Positions 4,848 through 19,967 of a DNA stretch of 21,751 nt are shown here, piece by piece. Below the pieces are notes generated by a model. That model was not told the DNA's origin, did not search any database, and saw nothing but the letters and a program-made list of their open reading frames with translations. This DNA is from a virus: positions 1-21,751 of the IMG/VR virus record IMGVR_UViG_3300047497_000002; one strand, 5' to 3'. The position numbers and the translations under genes were made by a program. Position 1 is the first letter of the stretch. Each line of letters begins with the position of its first letter.

Positions 4848-5903
4848 TCACTCGCTCTTGAACTTGCTCGACCAGGCTTTGCCCGACTTGCCGGCGCTGC
4901 CGCCCTTGCCGCCGAGCGCCTGCGGATCGCACAGACTTAGATGCGCGATCGAGCCTTGCTGTCGGCTCTGCGAAAACTCGACGCGCTCGATCGCCATGTC
5001 CTGTTGCACGTCGAGAAACGGGCTGTCGACGTAGGTCAAATTACCCGGCGCCCAGAGCTGGCCGCCCTCGTCGTGAAAGCCCTGCACTTCGATATGCGCT
5101 TTCAAAGCGTGACCGGCCTCGCGCGCGAGCCGCCACTCGGCGCGATTTTGCGCGCGCGTGGCGTCGGTATCCTCGTCGATCACGACAACGGACGGCCGAT
5201 AGCGGCCGACCGCATCGTCCGTCGCTGTCTGCTCGATCTGCGTGTTCTGCGCGCCGTTGCCGCGCGCCGCCTGGCCGCGGGCGATCACATGCGAATGCCG
5301 GCCGGCCCAGTTATGGTCCGCCTCGAGGCCCTTGCAATTGTAACCCTCGAGCAGCGGCGAATTGCGCGCCTGCGACAGCCGCGTGATGTTGATCGAGCCG
5401 TCGGCCTGGCCGGTCAAGACGAGGCCTTGCTGCCGGCACAGTTTTTCGATGCAGCGAAAAACCGTCTCGCCCGGCGTGATCTGATAATGCGGGATCGGCT
5501 CGAGCGCCTGGTCGCTCTTAAAGCCGATGCCGAACTTGTCGAGCGCCTGCGCGATCTGCAGGACGTTCTGATTCTCGAAATAGCCGGTTTCGTGCACGGC
5601 CGAGGAGTCGATCGCGTCCTGCCCCTTGCCGCGGCCCGACACGTGAATGATCGCCTCGTTGTGCTCGTGCAATTTCGGCTGATAGCGATCGACATAGCCG
5701 GTCACGAGCAGATCGCCGCCGGCATAGATCGAGACTTCCGTGCCGCAGGCAAAAACCCAGGCGGTCGCGCTCGGCCCGGCGGCCGCGGCGATCGCCAGCG
5801 AGAACGAGCGCGCGGCCTCGTTGGCGCCGGCGGCGACCGCGACGTGCTCGAAAGCAGAATAACGCAGGCCGCCGGCGGCGACCGTGACCAGCTCCGGCCC
5901 CAT
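4848..5903 (-). CDS. Baseplate hub protein, Mu gpP / late control D-like
   Basis: 351 residues. The N-terminus is a split-barrel type beta domain (VTVAAGGLRYSAFEHVAV...). Features of the gpP/gpD hub family include TGYVDRYQPKLHEHNEAIIHVSGR (about residues 68-91), GETVFRCIEKLCRQQGLVL (about 144-162) and GYNCKGLEADHNWAGRHSHVIARGQ (about 187-211). Late regions contain AEWRLAREAGHALKAHIEVQGF and GQLWAPGNLTYVDSPFLDV, the usual end of the hub barrel. The hub ties the tail tube to the spike encoded next. The C-terminal tail is Gly/Ser/Lys-rich. The ATG stands 7 bases after the upstream TAG without a clear ribosome site, suggesting coupled translation. Confidence 0.9.
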   Translation of the reverse strand: MGPELVTVAAGGLRYSAFEHVAVAAGANEAARSFSLAIAAAAGPSATAWVFACGTEVSIYAGGDLLVTGYVDRYQPKLHEHNEAIIHVSGRGKGQDAIDSSAVHETGYFENQNVLQIAQALDKFGIGFKSDQALEPIPHYQITPGETVFRCIEKLCRQQGLVLTGQADGSINITRLSQARNSPLLEGYNCKGLEADHNWAGRHSHVIARGQAARGNGAQNTQIEQTATDDAVGRYRPSVVVIDEDTDATRAQNRAEWRLAREAGHALKAHIEVQGFHDEGGQLWAPGNLTYVDSPFLDVQQDMAIERVEFSQSRQQGSIAHLSLCDPQALGGKGGSAGKSGKAWSSKFKSE

Positions 5904-14800: not shown

Positions 14801-15862
14801 TTAGTTGCTCGAAAAGACCTTCACGACGGCCTCGGGACGGCGGCAGATCGGCAGCGGATTGCTTTCCGATTTGAGCTCGATCCCTTCGCCGTGGTCTTTG
14901 ATCTTCGGCGAGATATAGATCTGCTGGCCGCGCTGATTGACGAAGCGCAGATCGTGCGCCGGCGCATAATAGGTGCGGAACATTTTGCGCGTGCCGGTCG
15001 GAAAGGCCGAGCCGGTCTTGCTCGACCAAAACGACGTGTTGGTGAGCGTCGTCGCGGTCGGCGACGACTTGATCGGCGCCGTGCCGTAATATTCGCGGAA
15101 CAGAATGTTGCCGAACTTGAACTGCCGGCCCCACATATTGCCGGCGCTTTCCTTGCGCACAAGCTGCGCCAGCATGAGCGCCTGCTCGGCGTTCACATAG
15201 AACGCCTGCACGTTCGGATGCGTGATCAACGCCTCGAAAAACACAGGATCGACGATGCACTCGATCCCGTTCATGACTTCGCCCTGCAGATTTGTCGTCA
15301 CGGCCTGCCACACGGCGGCGCACTTCGACTGAATGTCAGTCCCGCTCGTGCCGAGGGCGAAATCAACCGTGGTTTGATTGACGCCGAGCGCAGTATAAAG
15401 ATTGATCAGCGTCTGCGAATTGCCGTCGACGATCGTGCCCTGCAGAGCGCCGCAGCGCAGCCATTCGAGCGTGACGTCGTGGTTCGCCTTGATGTCGACA
15501 AGACGCTTGCTGACTTCCTCGTCAACCGTCGTGAGGCGCTTGACGTCGTCCGTGACGATCAGAATGTCCTGAATGTCCTGCGGCGTGATCAGATCCAGCT
15601 CGGGGAAATGCGGGATCTCGATAAAGATCGACTGCGCCGTGCGCGGAAGCTGCGGCGTGGCAGGCGCGCCGCGCTCTTTGGCCGGCAGAACGCGCAGCGT
15701 GTGGTTTTCGTAAGTCAGCTCGACGATGCGGCTGACGCTGCCCTGCACGGGAAACAGATTCAGCTCGTTAACCAGGCCATAAAGGTTCGGGATCCGGTCG
15801 ACGCGCTCCGTCAGTTGCGTGTAGGTGTACGGAAAAATAAGGCTCAGATCTTCACCAGACAT
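14801..15862 (-). CDS. Major capsid protein, lambda gpE family
   Basis: 353 residues, near lambda gpE (341). Early residues LSLIFPYTYTQLTERVDRIPNLYG and ENHTLRVLPAKERGAP, then FIEIPHFPELDLITPQDIQ (about 80-98), are the standard start of this family, with the E-loop and N-arm in the HK97 fold. The middle has the spine helix region DIKANHDVTLEWLRCGALQGTIVD. The end reads GQQIYISPKIKDHGEGIELKSESNPLPICRRPEAVVKV, the usual C-terminal P-domain strand. It forms the icosahedral shell around the Nu3-like scaffold and is then locked by gpD. GGAG sits about 7-10 bases upstream. The gene has a hairpin on its 5' side and a terminator on its 3' side. Confidence 0.95.
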   Translation of the reverse strand: MSGEDLSLIFPYTYTQLTERVDRIPNLYGLVNELNLFPVQGSVSRIVELTYENHTLRVLPAKERGAPATPQLPRTAQSIFIEIPHFPELDLITPQDIQDILIVTDDVKRLTTVDEEVSKRLVDIKANHDVTLEWLRCGALQGTIVDGNSQTLINLYTALGVNQTTVDFALGTSGTDIQSKCAAVWQAVTTNLQGEVMNGIECIVDPVFFEALITHPNVQAFYVNAEQALMLAQLVRKESAGNMWGRQFKFGNILFREYYGTAPIKSSPTATTLTNTSFWSSKTGSAFPTGTRKMFRTYYAPAHDLRFVNQRGQQIYISPKIKDHGEGIELKSESNPLPICRRPEAVVKVFSSN

Positions 15863-16004: not shown

Positions 16005-16682
16005 TTACGACGGGCGGCAGATAATGCCGGCGGCGGCGAGCTGCGCGAGCGCGGCGGCTTGCTGCGTTCCGGTAATGCCCGACGGCCAGATCAGGCCATC
16101 GGTCAAAAGCACGGCCTGGCGCTCGACCAGAAGCACGGAGGCGTCGCTACCGGACGGCACGGTCGTCTGCTTCACGACGACGCCCATCGCCACGGCCGAG
16201 CCGTCGGTCGCCGTCGGATTGAGCGGCACGACCTTGCCACTGCCCGCAGCGACCACGATCGTAAAGCCGTCGCCGGCAGCAAAGGCCGTGCCGCCGGCGG
16301 TAATGGTAAAGCCGAGCTGATTGGCGAACGCCGTGCCGGTCGCCCCTTCGCCGACGATCTTGCCGCTCGGATCAATGACATTGTACTTCGTCGCGGCGAG
16401 GAACTCGATCGAATAGGTGCCGTTCTGGATCCCGGCTTGCGCCGTCACCGCGCCAACGGTGCCGTTGCCGGTGTTGCCGGCGTTGGCAGTCGCCGAGCCT
16501 GGCGTGCCGGCGGTCTGCTTGCCCATGACGGTGCCGACGTCGAGCAGCCCGGCGATCGCCTGACTGGCGGCGCAATTGGCAAGGGCGGTTTCCTGCTCGA
16601 AAGAAAATTCCTCGGCCGGAAACCATTTCAGGACTGCGGTCTGCAGCGTCTGACGATTGACGGTTTTCGTATAGAGAGTCAT
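16005..16682 (-). CDS. Head decoration protein, lambda gpD-like, with inserted domain
   Basis: 225 residues, twice lambda gpD (110). The outer parts fit gpD: EEFSFEQETALAN, AGLLDVGTVMGK (about 45-56) and, after the extra piece, VVPLNPTATDGSAVAMGVVVKQT with ASVLLVERQAVL and a final helix ending GIICRPS. Residues about 58-150 form a Gly/Thr-rich insert (GNTGNGTVGAVTAQAG, GTYSIEF, TGTAFANQLGFTITAGG, AAGDGFTIVVAAGSG), a beta module I recall from other phage structural proteins. gpD binds threefold sites and stabilises the expanded capsid, so the insert would face outward. AGGAG lies about 10 bases before the ATG. A GC hairpin follows the gene. Confidence 0.85.
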   Translation of the reverse strand: MTLYTKTVNRQTLQTAVLKWFPAEEFSFEQETALANCAASQAIAGLLDVGTVMGKQTAGTPGSATANAGNTGNGTVGAVTAQAGIQNGTYSIEFLAATKYNVIDPSGKIVGEGATGTAFANQLGFTITAGGTAFAAGDGFTIVVAAGSGKVVPLNPTATDGSAVAMGVVVKQTTVPSGSDASVLLVERQAVLLTDGLIWPSGITGTQQAAALAQLAAAGIICRPS

Positions 16683-16758: not shown

Positions 16759-17247
16759 TTACTTGCGCAGCGACTTTTCGCCGTTTGTGGTGCGGCTCAC
16801 TTCGCGCTCGAGCGCGGCGTCGAGGCCGGCGAGCCGGCTTTTCTCGGCGTCACCACTTGCGCTTTCGACAGCGTCGACTTTCGGCGCGTGATTGGTCATG
16901 AGCGCATCGAGCCGCGACGTCGGCGCGGCCTCGGCCTTTGGCGCCGCGGCGAGAATGCCGATCGCGGCCTCGGCCGTCATGTCCGTGTCGAATGCAAGAT
17001 GCTGCGCGAGCGCTTCGCGGCCCTTGGCGTGCTCGCTGCCGAGAATTGCCTTGGCGCGAGCGCGCTCGTCGGCCTTTGCATTGCCGGCAGGCTCTGCGGC
17101 GGGCGCGGCAGCCGGCGCTGCAGGCGCGGCGGCGGCCGGAGCTGCAGGCGCCGGAGCTGCAGGCGCGGCGGCGGCGGCCGGAGCTGCAGCGGCAGCCGGA
17201 GTGAGGGCAGCCGCGTGCACGGCGGCGAGTCCGCTTTCTTTCGACAT
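16759..17247 (-). CDS. Capsid scaffold protein (Nu3-like), separate from the protease
   Basis: 162 residues from the ATG at 17247, with GGAG 8 bases upstream. Residues 12-54 are nearly all Ala and Pro, probably a disordered linker. Residues about 57-103 (KADERARAKAILGSEHAKGR, EALAQHLAFDTDMTAEAAIG) match the C-terminal domain I recall on S49-type prohead proteases of alphaproteobacterial phages, and a charged helical end follows (LDAALEREV). In lambda the scaffold Nu3 is translated from an internal start in the protease gene. Here it follows the protease in the same frame after one UGA. It should fill the procapsid and be removed by the protease. Confidence 0.78.
   Translation of the reverse strand: MSKESGLAAVHAAALTPAAAAAPAAAAAPAAPAPAAPAAAAPAAPAAAPAAEPAGNAKADERARAKAILGSEHAKGREALAQHLAFDTDMTAEAAIGILAAAPKAEAAPTSRLDALMTNHAPKVDAVESASGDAEKSRLAGLDAALEREVSRTTNGEKSLRK
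17086..17214 (-). repeat. Ala/Pro-coding low-complexity repeat in the scaffold gene
   Basis: Imperfect direct repeats of a unit like GCGCCTGCAGCTCCGG coding PAAPAAAAP blocks, with CTGCAG recurring four times. The region is likely to vary in length by slippage. It codes for the linker between the scaffold start and its conserved C-terminal domain. Confidence 0.7.
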
Positions 17248-17280
17248 TGGATTTTCTCCGATTAGCTTGAGGAAGGATCA
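17248..17280 (-). other. In-frame UGA junction between protease and scaffold
   Basis: From the protease stop TGA at 17278-17280 to the scaffold ATG there are ten sense codons (SFLKLIGENP) and no other stop, in the same reading frame (18198 minus 17247 is divisible by 3). The GGAG ribosome site falls inside this short stretch. Reading through would give a 479-residue protease-scaffold fusion. Confidence 0.9.
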
Positions 17281-18198
17281 GCCGACGCGCGCCAAAAATT
17301 CATTGAACGCGAGTTGCGGCCGGACAACGCCGTCAGCGAGCCCAGCCTCGACGGCAGCGTCGCCGCGGAAAACGTCGGCCTCGGTTTCGAGCGCGGCTTT
17401 TTTCGACAGCCGGCGCCCGCGAAAGCGGGCGACCGTGCCGGCGAACAGATCGCGGGCCGCGTCAATGTCGCGCTGGAAGCGCGCCGCGACGTCCGCGGAT
17501 AACGGTTTGAACGGAGAGCCGTCGGCCTTGCGATCGCCCGACGTGATCACGGTCACGCGCATGCCGTCATTTTCGATCGCGCGCGAGAAATCGACGTGCA
17601 TGGTGATGACGCCGATCGAGCCGGCATAGCCGGTCGCAGGCAGCACGATCTGACGCGCTGCCGAGGCGAGCAAATAACCGGCCGAAAGCGCATTGTCCGT
17701 CAGGATCGCGATCGTCGGCTTGGCGGCAGACAGCTCGCCGATCATTTCGGCCGTATCGAAAGCGCCGGAAACCTCGCCGCCGAAACTGTCGATCTCAAAC
17801 ACGACGCCGGCGACGCTCGGATCCGCCATAGCGGCGGCGACTTGCGCTTGAATGCCTTGATACGACGTTTCGCCGGAAAAACTGCCAATCCAGCCGCCCT
17901 TATGCACGAGCGAGCCCTCGATCGCGATCACGGCGACCGAGCCGATCCGCGTCAAGATCTGATCGCGCGTCACGCCGCGCGCCTCGAGCCGCTTATCGTA
18001 GCCAAGGACGCCCATGTTTTCAGACGGCCGCCCCTCGGCGAACGCGACATGATCGAGCGCCGGCGGCCCGTCGATCACGAGCTGACCGTCGACCAGGCGG
18101 CCGCCCAGGCCGGCGACAATCGCGACGGCCTTGCCGGCGTCGACCATCAGCGGCGTGTTAAAGACGCGCGCGGCAATGTGAGGCAAAAGAACGTTCAT
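17278..18198 (-). CDS. Prohead protease, S49 family (lambda gpC-like)
   Basis: 306 residues from the ATG at 18198, with AGGAG 8 bases upstream. The fold and catalytic residues of the S49/SppA family are visible: DSFGGEV (137-143), LSAGYLLASAA with probable nucleophile Ser172, YAGSIGVITMHVD (191-203), and GDRKADG with the probable general base Lys224. It cleaves the scaffold and portal N-terminus during procapsid maturation. Lambda gpC is 439 residues because the scaffold domain is fused to it. Here the frame stops at an UGA after the catalytic domain and the scaffold is a separate gene directly downstream in the same frame. The portal gene ends 11 bases upstream, as in lambda. Confidence 0.92.
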   Translation of the reverse strand: MNVLLPHIAARVFNTPLMVDAGKAVAIVAGLGGRLVDGQLVIDGPPALDHVAFAEGRPSENMGVLGYDKRLEARGVTRDQILTRIGSVAVIAIEGSLVHKGGWIGSFSGETSYQGIQAQVAAAMADPSVAGVVFEIDSFGGEVSGAFDTAEMIGELSAAKPTIAILTDNALSAGYLLASAARQIVLPATGYAGSIGVITMHVDFSRAIENDGMRVTVITSGDRKADGSPFKPLSADVAARFQRDIDAARDLFAGTVARFRGRRLSKKAALETEADVFRGDAAVEAGLADGVVRPQLAFNEFLARVG

Positions 18199-18209: not shown

Positions 18210-19967
18210 CTAAATAGGCCGTCGAGCAGCAATGTTCTGCTCGATCGCGCGCAAGCGGCTCTCGAATGATGCGATCGTTGCGTCGACCTCGGCCTTTTCG
18301 CCGCCGTCCGGCTTACCGCCGCCCGGCAGTTCCTCGGGCGCCTCGACGCCGGCGGGATCGTCGGACGGATCTGTCGCAATCCGTCCAGGCGCCGAAACAG
18401 CGCGAACCAGGCCGCGCGCGGCCAGCTCGTCTTTCTCGATCGCAGCCTGATCGAGAACATCCTCCCAATCCTCGCCGCCAAGGGCGCACTCTTCCTCGAG
18501 CGTCGACGTGAGCTGATCCATTCGGATGCCGGCCGATTGCGCTTCCTTGACCGGATCGACATAGCCGCGCCCCGGCCCGATCCAACGCGCCTCGAGATAG
18601 GCGCCCGGCATCGTCCAAAAATCAGGCGCGCCGGCCGGCGTTTTCAGAAAGCCGCGATCAAAACTTTCCTCGACGACGGCGTAATAGATCGGGACGATCA
18701 CTTGCTCGACGAAAACGGAAAACTCGGCCTCAATGTGCCGCCACACTTCATTGAGTGCAGCGCGCGCCGACGAATAATTCGTCCGCGACCAATCCATCGC
18801 GAGCTGCTCATAGGAAATGCCAAGCGCAGCCGCGATCGACTGCAAAAATGCAGTCTGAAAATGCTGAAAAGCATTCGTTTGCCGCGGCGAAGCGTTGATC
18901 TTGATCTCGTCGCCGATCGGCAAAACCGGAATGCGAACGCCATTGAGGCGTGCCGGGTTTTCCCGCCAGTGCGCATTGCGCTTGTCGGCGAACGTCGAGG
19001 CCTGCGGCGTGAACGCCTGCGTCGCCTCGGCGATCGGCAAATTGGAATGAACAAAAGCGGCGAACAGCGCATTGACGGTCGCGCTTGCCAATTCGGCGTC
19101 CGCAAATTTCGTGATCATGCGCAGCCGCGTCATGAGCGCGGCGAACGGCGTCACCGATCGGGACTGATCCTCGCGGTCCGGTTCCATCGCGTGAATGAAA
19201 ACGGGCCGGCCCCATTCCGTCACGCGCGGGATCGTCGTCCATTTGAGCTGTTGCGCGTAACGGAAATAATCGGACGGATGGCCGTTGCGCACGTGATAAG
19301 CGAGCGGCGTGCCATCCTCGTCGTATGAGATCCCGCCGCGCATCGTCAGCGTGTCCGCCTGCCCCATTGGATTGCACAGGCGATCAGGATCAATCACGCG
19401 CAGGCATGTCGCGTAACGGGCAAGCGGATCCTTGCGCCAGGTCAAATAGGCCGTCGTCTCGCCGCGGCGCTTCCACGTGCGCGCCATCAGGCGCAATTGC
19501 GTATTGAGCCCATAGCGCCGCTGCGCGTCATTGAACTTGCGCGGATCGTTGGCAAAGAGCTGCCATTCGCTTTTGAGCTGTTGCGCGAGATCTTTCAGCC
19601 TGGCGCGGCCATCCTTGCTCGAGGAGTCAATACCGAGCGCGCGGGCGTTCGGCCGTGGCGACAAGCGCACGCCGGCGCCGACAAGCATGTCGACCAGGCG
19701 AGTGACCGCGGCGCGCGCGTGCGGATCATTACGATAAAGATCATCCGCGCGCGCGTTTGCCCAGACACGATCGTAAAGTGTCGAGCTTTCGCCCGACGTG
19801 AGCGGCGGACGCCAAGCATAGGTTTCCTGAGTGTCCAGGCTCGCGCCCTTGTAGGACGTCGGAAACTGCCGGCCGTCGCCGCGATACTCTGTCGGCGACC
19901 ACAACGTATCGGCCAAATGCTGCAGCGGCGATGACGCCATCGCCCGCAGCTCGCGCAAAATCGGCAT
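18210..19967 (-). CDS. Portal protein, lambda gpB family
   Basis: 585 residues, slightly longer than lambda gpB (533). Family segments appear in order: RAAVTRLVDMLVGAGVRLSP (about 85-104), CLRVIDPDRLCNP (about 188-200), AYHVRNGHPSDYF and WGRPVFIHAMEPDREDQSRSVTPFAALMTRL (about 250-283). The C-terminal third has the helical AFQHFQTAFLQSIAAALGISYEQL region, and the tail is acidic and Pro/Gly-rich. Twelve copies form the channel vertex for packaging and tail joining. The ATG directly follows the TAA of the small upstream gene; the ribosome site is weak, suggesting coupled translation. An Arg-rich end (IAARRPI) comes just before the protease gene. Confidence 0.95.
   Translation of the reverse strand: MPILRELRAMASSPLQHLADTLWSPTEYRGDGRQFPTSYKGASLDTQETYAWRPPLTSGESSTLYDRVWANARADDLYRNDPHARAAVTRLVDMLVGAGVRLSPRPNARALGIDSSSKDGRARLKDLAQQLKSEWQLFANDPRKFNDAQRRYGLNTQLRLMARTWKRRGETTAYLTWRKDPLARYATCLRVIDPDRLCNPMGQADTLTMRGGISYDEDGTPLAYHVRNGHPSDYFRYAQQLKWTTIPRVTEWGRPVFIHAMEPDREDQSRSVTPFAALMTRLRMITKFADAELASATVNALFAAFVHSNLPIAEATQAFTPQASTFADKRNAHWRENPARLNGVRIPVLPIGDEIKINASPRQTNAFQHFQTAFLQSIAAALGISYEQLAMDWSRTNYSSARAALNEVWRHIEAEFSVFVEQVIVPIYYAVVEESFDRGFLKTPAGAPDFWTMPGAYLEARWIGPGRGYVDPVKEAQSAGIRMDQLTSTLEEECALGGEDWEDVLDQAAIEKDELAARGLVRAVSAPGRIATDPSDDPAGVEAPEELPGGGKPDGGEKAEVDATIASFESRLRAIEQNIAARRPI

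Follow-up and report, generated by a model that had tools for sequence, protein, structure and literature searches.

A head protease and scaffold in one reading frame: probable separate genes in a lambda-like phage head module

Head module and the protease/scaffold junction

When a phage head protease and its scaffold lie in one reading frame and are parted by a single stop codon, are they the halves of a broken gene or two genes that happen to be in register? The question is raised by a stretch of viral DNA of 21,751 nt (IMG/VR record IMGVR_UViG_3300047497_000002, positions 1 to 21,751; hereafter the window). Its minus strand, on which all features below are found, carries a lambda-like head module of terminase, head-tail adaptor, portal, S49 protease, scaffold, D and E. 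The portal protein (18210..19967; Pfam Phage_portal_2, 4.1e-92) is of the lambda family. It is followed by an S49-type head maturation protease of 306 aa (17278..18198), which matched Peptidase_S49 (PF01343, 6.3e-25) above the Pfam gathering score and the PHROG head maturation protease family phrog_53 (9.3e-93). Candidate catalytic residues Ser172 and Lys224 are both invariant in the protease alignment, and we take them to be the putative catalytic pair by analogy to SppA. Beyond the 162-aa scaffold gene (16759..17247) lie head decoration protein D (16005..16682; Pfam HDPD, 1.3e-16) and a major capsid protein of the E family (14801..15862; Pfam Phage_cap_E, 1.4e-74).

PHROG profiles matched by the scaffold were phrog_17040 (4.5e-12), phrog_6382 (9.4e-12) and the C-terminal part of phrog_53 (5.1e-7). 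Its core domain (KGREALAQHLAF...; 16810..17082, residues 56-146 by the phrog_17040 match) is homologous to lambda Nu3 and the C-terminal gpC region, and the same motif is found in the C-termini of lambda, N15 and 21; this homology to fused C-termini is drawn from the PHROG matches and from visible motifs, including KGRE...LA. The scaffold also has an N-terminal hydrophobic motif, GLAAVHAAA (residues 6-14; 17206..17232). The linker (17097-17205) is an extreme Ala/Pro-rich low-complexity run, and its DNA is repetitive and GC-rich.

Translation of 18198-16759 yields the protease, one stop, ten sense codons (SFLKLIGENP) and the scaffold in frame, exactly the arrangement that the initial annotation had described. 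The stop is a UGA (17278..17280), and the 30-nt intergenic spacer (17248..17277) contains a Shine-Dalgarno (SD) sequence, GGAGA (17255..17259), about 8 nt upstream of the scaffold ATG (17247-17245). The chance that two genes share a frame is 1 in 3, and 60% of shuffled versions of the spacer are open. Given separate genes, a shared frame without interruption is therefore expected in about 1 in 5 cases (~20%, one third multiplied by 0.60).

Split and fused relatives

A protease match was obtained at 444 loci when genome contigs, viral contigs and phage records were scanned. In a first census, 211 unique proteases were classed by how far the stop lies beyond the protease domain. The values formed two clearly separate classes, 0-9 residues (split) and more than about 120 residues (fused), with 74 split and 131 fused proteases and a few truncated contigs. 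The fused form occurs in more distant Rhodobacteraceae prophages, lambda, 21, N15, FoX4 and others, and the statement in the initial annotation that related proteases carry a homologous scaffold domain as a fusion was correct. Named phages with the split form are PPF1, phi2LM21, phiNP and BZS1. A search of the open-licence literature, in which older work may be missed, returned no paper on a split protease and scaffold in this family.

The relatives nearest to the window are split. All 13 contigs at 58-80% protease identity in the first viral scan belong to this class; the protease stops at the same place and is followed by the scaffold's own SD and ATG, also in other frames. This is the pattern that the initial annotation had itself set against its proposals. 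Down to about 51% identity, L217 is the sole fused locus among the relatives, with L219 unclear. Within the split clade, L217 (2084-3832) is a natural in-frame protease-scaffold fusion that reads through the same junction and retains an AAAGGA-ATG; its scaffold part is without the N-terminal motif. The protease of L219 has a long unrelated C-terminal extension, with no visible scaffold and no capsid genes seen just downstream, and the locus was set aside. A phylogenetic tree places the window deep inside the well-supported split clade, and the fused or split state changes three times on the careful tree.

These relatives also bear on the earlier suggestion that a sequencing or assembly error had converted a sense codon to UGA. 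Such an error is conceivable in a single virus contig such as the window, but in at least 13 contigs from close relatives the protease stop is at this position as well, and we regard the probability of an error as negligible.

Drift of the junction

Start, SD, stop and frame were counted in a curated set of 67 split loci. The scaffold start is ATG in 67/67 and is preceded by an SD of at least four bases in 64/67. The features in between are not conserved: the stop at this place is UGA in 32 loci, UAA in 18 and UAG in 17, and the scaffold is distributed 20/31/16 across the three frames, with 20 in frame with the protease. The spacer, when the earliest ATG is taken, ranges from 1 to 61 nt (median 26), and the frame counts are unchanged by this choice. 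On the careful tree the frame changes at least 23 times and the stop codon 19 times. In the extreme case, a single spacer A accounts for the difference in frame between two loci (L088 and L089) whose identity is 99.86% over 1460 bp, and each type of spacer is present in several contigs. These comparisons establish that the split in this clade is an old one, with free drift of frame, spacer and stop codon.

Programmed read-through of the UGA, giving a low-level protease-scaffold fusion, had been proposed for the window, where the frame is open on either side of the single stop. All 20 in-frame split loci are likewise open across the spacer; however, in the other frame classes the scaffold frame is likewise uninterrupted as far back as the protease stop in 29/31 and 14/16 loci, so an open frame does not set the in-frame loci apart. 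The frame, stop and openness counts from the 67 loci give no sign of selection for read-through. The frame across the stop, which would be conserved at a read-through site, is instead spread over all three classes and switched by a single base between near-identical contigs, and the base following the UGA varies among relatives. With frame, stop codon and spacer length all varying freely, the proposal was abandoned, and we consider read-through very improbable.

The in-frame fraction (20/67) shows no excess over chance. We conclude that protease and scaffold are, very probably, separate genes whose shared frame is coincidental, a two-gene version of the lambda C/Nu3 pair. The protease would terminate at an ordinary UGA, and the scaffold would be translated separately from its own GGAGA-ATG. 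This removes a tempting false positive, since chance alone would place a single in-frame stop between two related genes in about one of five such pairs.

Origin of the split and of the scaffold start

The fused genes indicate where the scaffold start may have come from. Among those sampled, 120/131 have an in-frame SD-ATG 14-19 codons past the protease domain, and the junction ATG has an SD of at least 4 in 128/131, compared with 55/375 control in-frame ATGs of the protease domain; these counts refer to a junction ATG picked as the best in a window of positions, and most of the fused rows are Rhodobacteraceae. An SD-ATG near the junction is also present in lambda, 21, N15, AhaSv and AcaML1, and the scaffold genes of N15 and 21 are annotated at exactly this ATG. 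In lambda (NC_001416; L183), AGGAGG followed by ATG at 5342 is the conserved junction start, and nu3 is annotated at 5132. Because fused relatives carry an SD-ATG at the equivalent junction, the scaffold start is probably common to fused and split forms and predates the split. The GGAG ribosome site is thus probably not new, contrary to what had been supposed.

The fused state is likely the deep ancestor, with the direction from fused to split taken from fused outgroups on an unrooted tree. The two genes may have arisen through a stop gained in the linker of a fused gene that already had an internal start for the scaffold. To this extent the initial suggestion of an ancestral fusion broken by one nonsense change holds at depth, but not for this UGA, since the relatives are split as well. 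The idea of a recent break in this phage, in which a new ribosome site was also acquired, draws on the single stop within a shared frame, the existence of homologous fused genes, and the in-clade fusion that reads through the same junction (L217). The window nevertheless falls within a well-supported split clade. At 58-80% identity, its relatives carry a stop and an SD-ATG at the matching position, in other frames, and the junction SD-ATG is present in fused relatives too. A recent event is accordingly highly unlikely, and as an origin for the window UGA it is refuted by the close relatives split in different frames.

The N-terminal scaffold motif

Nearly all split scaffolds share a layout of Met and a few residues, a short hydrophobic segment, a low-complexity linker and the core. 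Variants of the segment include, besides the GLAAVHAAA of the window, LIATIRGI, VLAAISG and FAHLLG. A loose motif pattern matched 147/175 split N-termini and 2/152 fused sequences after the internal Met, with most of the 28 split misses being near-variants by eye, and a strict pattern was rarely matched by shuffled N-termini; as both patterns were written after viewing the sequences, these counts describe the motif and are not a blind test. One split scaffold (L440) has no recognisable motif. N-terminal hydrophobicity differs strongly between split and fused forms, but the sequences are related. By independent pairs the link between motif and split was not significant (two to three contrasts, none opposite), because there are only about three fused/split changes on the trees.

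The motif also follows the protease when the rest of the head is exchanged. In twenty loci, of which 16 are in the reduced set, the scaffold core is of another type (PGHEKLI). The three capsids tested from these loci are all of the Mu gpT type (PF10124), and the capsid and decoration proteins of these loci gave no BLAST match to those of the window. Their portal is about 28% identical to that of the window, versus about 50-74% in most window-type relatives. The protease, in turn, is 51-61% identical, and the motif is kept in all. The motif thus stays with the protease even though the other head parts (portal, capsid, decoration protein and scaffold core) have all been exchanged, which suggests that it works with the protease. 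Genomic adjacency could be a partial alternative explanation for this co-travel. In these loci (L194, L202, L205, L213, L214, L220, L229, L232 and others) the head module has been swapped, and one junction of the swap falls within the scaffold gene.

We tentatively propose, at somewhat below even confidence, that the hydrophobic motif at the scaffold start recruits or engages the protease non-covalently and replaces the lost covalent tether. A protease engaged in this way would still enter the procapsid despite the loss of the fusion. About evenly balanced is the alternative that the motif has another role: it may be a site of cleavage, serve in autoinhibition, act as a nucleation or membrane element, or hitchhike with the protease gene beside it. 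Were it a substrate site of the protease, it would likewise track the protease, and the motif adjoins the protease gene, so that linkage alone would give co-travel. Hitchhiking alone, however, leaves unexplained the strong conservation of the motif beside a divergent linker and across 51-61% protease identity, and binding to portal or capsid is disfavoured, as both partners differ between the groups.

AlphaFold2 modelling of the window chain read through the UGA predicted a confident protease and confident scaffold-core helices joined by a disordered linker, with the motif as a short low-confidence helix (residues 323-331). In the two read-through chains modelled, of which the one from the second lineage was poorer, the motif did not dock in cis, which is in keeping with another role; the models are of single chains from shallow alignments and neither support nor exclude docking between chains.

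Some split scaffolds may be made in two lengths. A second SD-ATG at scaffold residues 32-51, which bypasses the motif, is present in 14 loci (PPF1, L220, L221, L225, L228, L229 and others), whereas an SD of this kind occurs at 2/498 later ATGs used as a control. The window scaffold has no such second start. The predicted pair of scaffolds resembles the long and short products of lambda. A fuller scenario, which we hold slightly less firmly than recruitment itself, is that a docking peptide replaced the lambda tether, that peptide and protease formed a cassette that moved between heads of the lambda and Mu types, and that in some lineages the nested start recreates the long/short scheme. Protease recruitment by the motif is offered as a hypothesis for how an unfused head protease might be packaged. 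If real, the motif could be a small portable tag for loading the protease or other cargo into phage procapsids.

Comparison with known systems

The closest known parallel is lambda C/Nu3, together with gp5/gp6 of phages 21 and N15. These have a homologous S49 protease and scaffold core, the same gene order (portal-protease-scaffold-D-E) and a scaffold SD-ATG at the junction, all as in the window. Lambda makes its scaffold in frame from within the protease gene, whereas in the window a stop separates two genes: one ORF does not span both domains (UGA, 17280-17278), and the scaffold start, rather than being nested in the protease gene, is an ATG 30 nt past its stop. The window scaffold also has the added N-terminal motif, which lambda C/Nu3 is without.

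Rhizobium phage PPF1 and Sinorhizobium phage phi2LM21 have the same split head arrangement, with SD-ATG scaffold genes that are annotated as murein transglycosylase or hypothetical. PPF1 differs from the window in its additional internal SD-ATG that bypasses the motif. The PPF1 gene PPF1_06 (L162 3929-4474), annotated as a putative lytic murein transglycosylase, is a scaffold by position and motif. Citrobacter phage phiNP and Serratia phage BZS1 also have a split protease and scaffold, with their own hydrophobic N-terminal motif (FAHLLG), and form a separate split lineage on the tree with a different linker and a spacer of 1-3 nt. The scaffolds of phi2LM21 and BZS1-like phages match phrog_6382, a family of unknown function, at 1.5e-50 and 3.6e-57. 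The comparison thus puts a label on an unannotated scaffold family, phrog_6382, as well as on the PPF1 gene called a murein transglycosylase.

In HK97 the gp4 protease is encapsidated without covalent attachment to a scaffold (PMC8508860, PMC10275583). In that phage a domain (delta) of the major capsid protein serves as the scaffold, whereas the window encodes a free scaffold of the lambda type.
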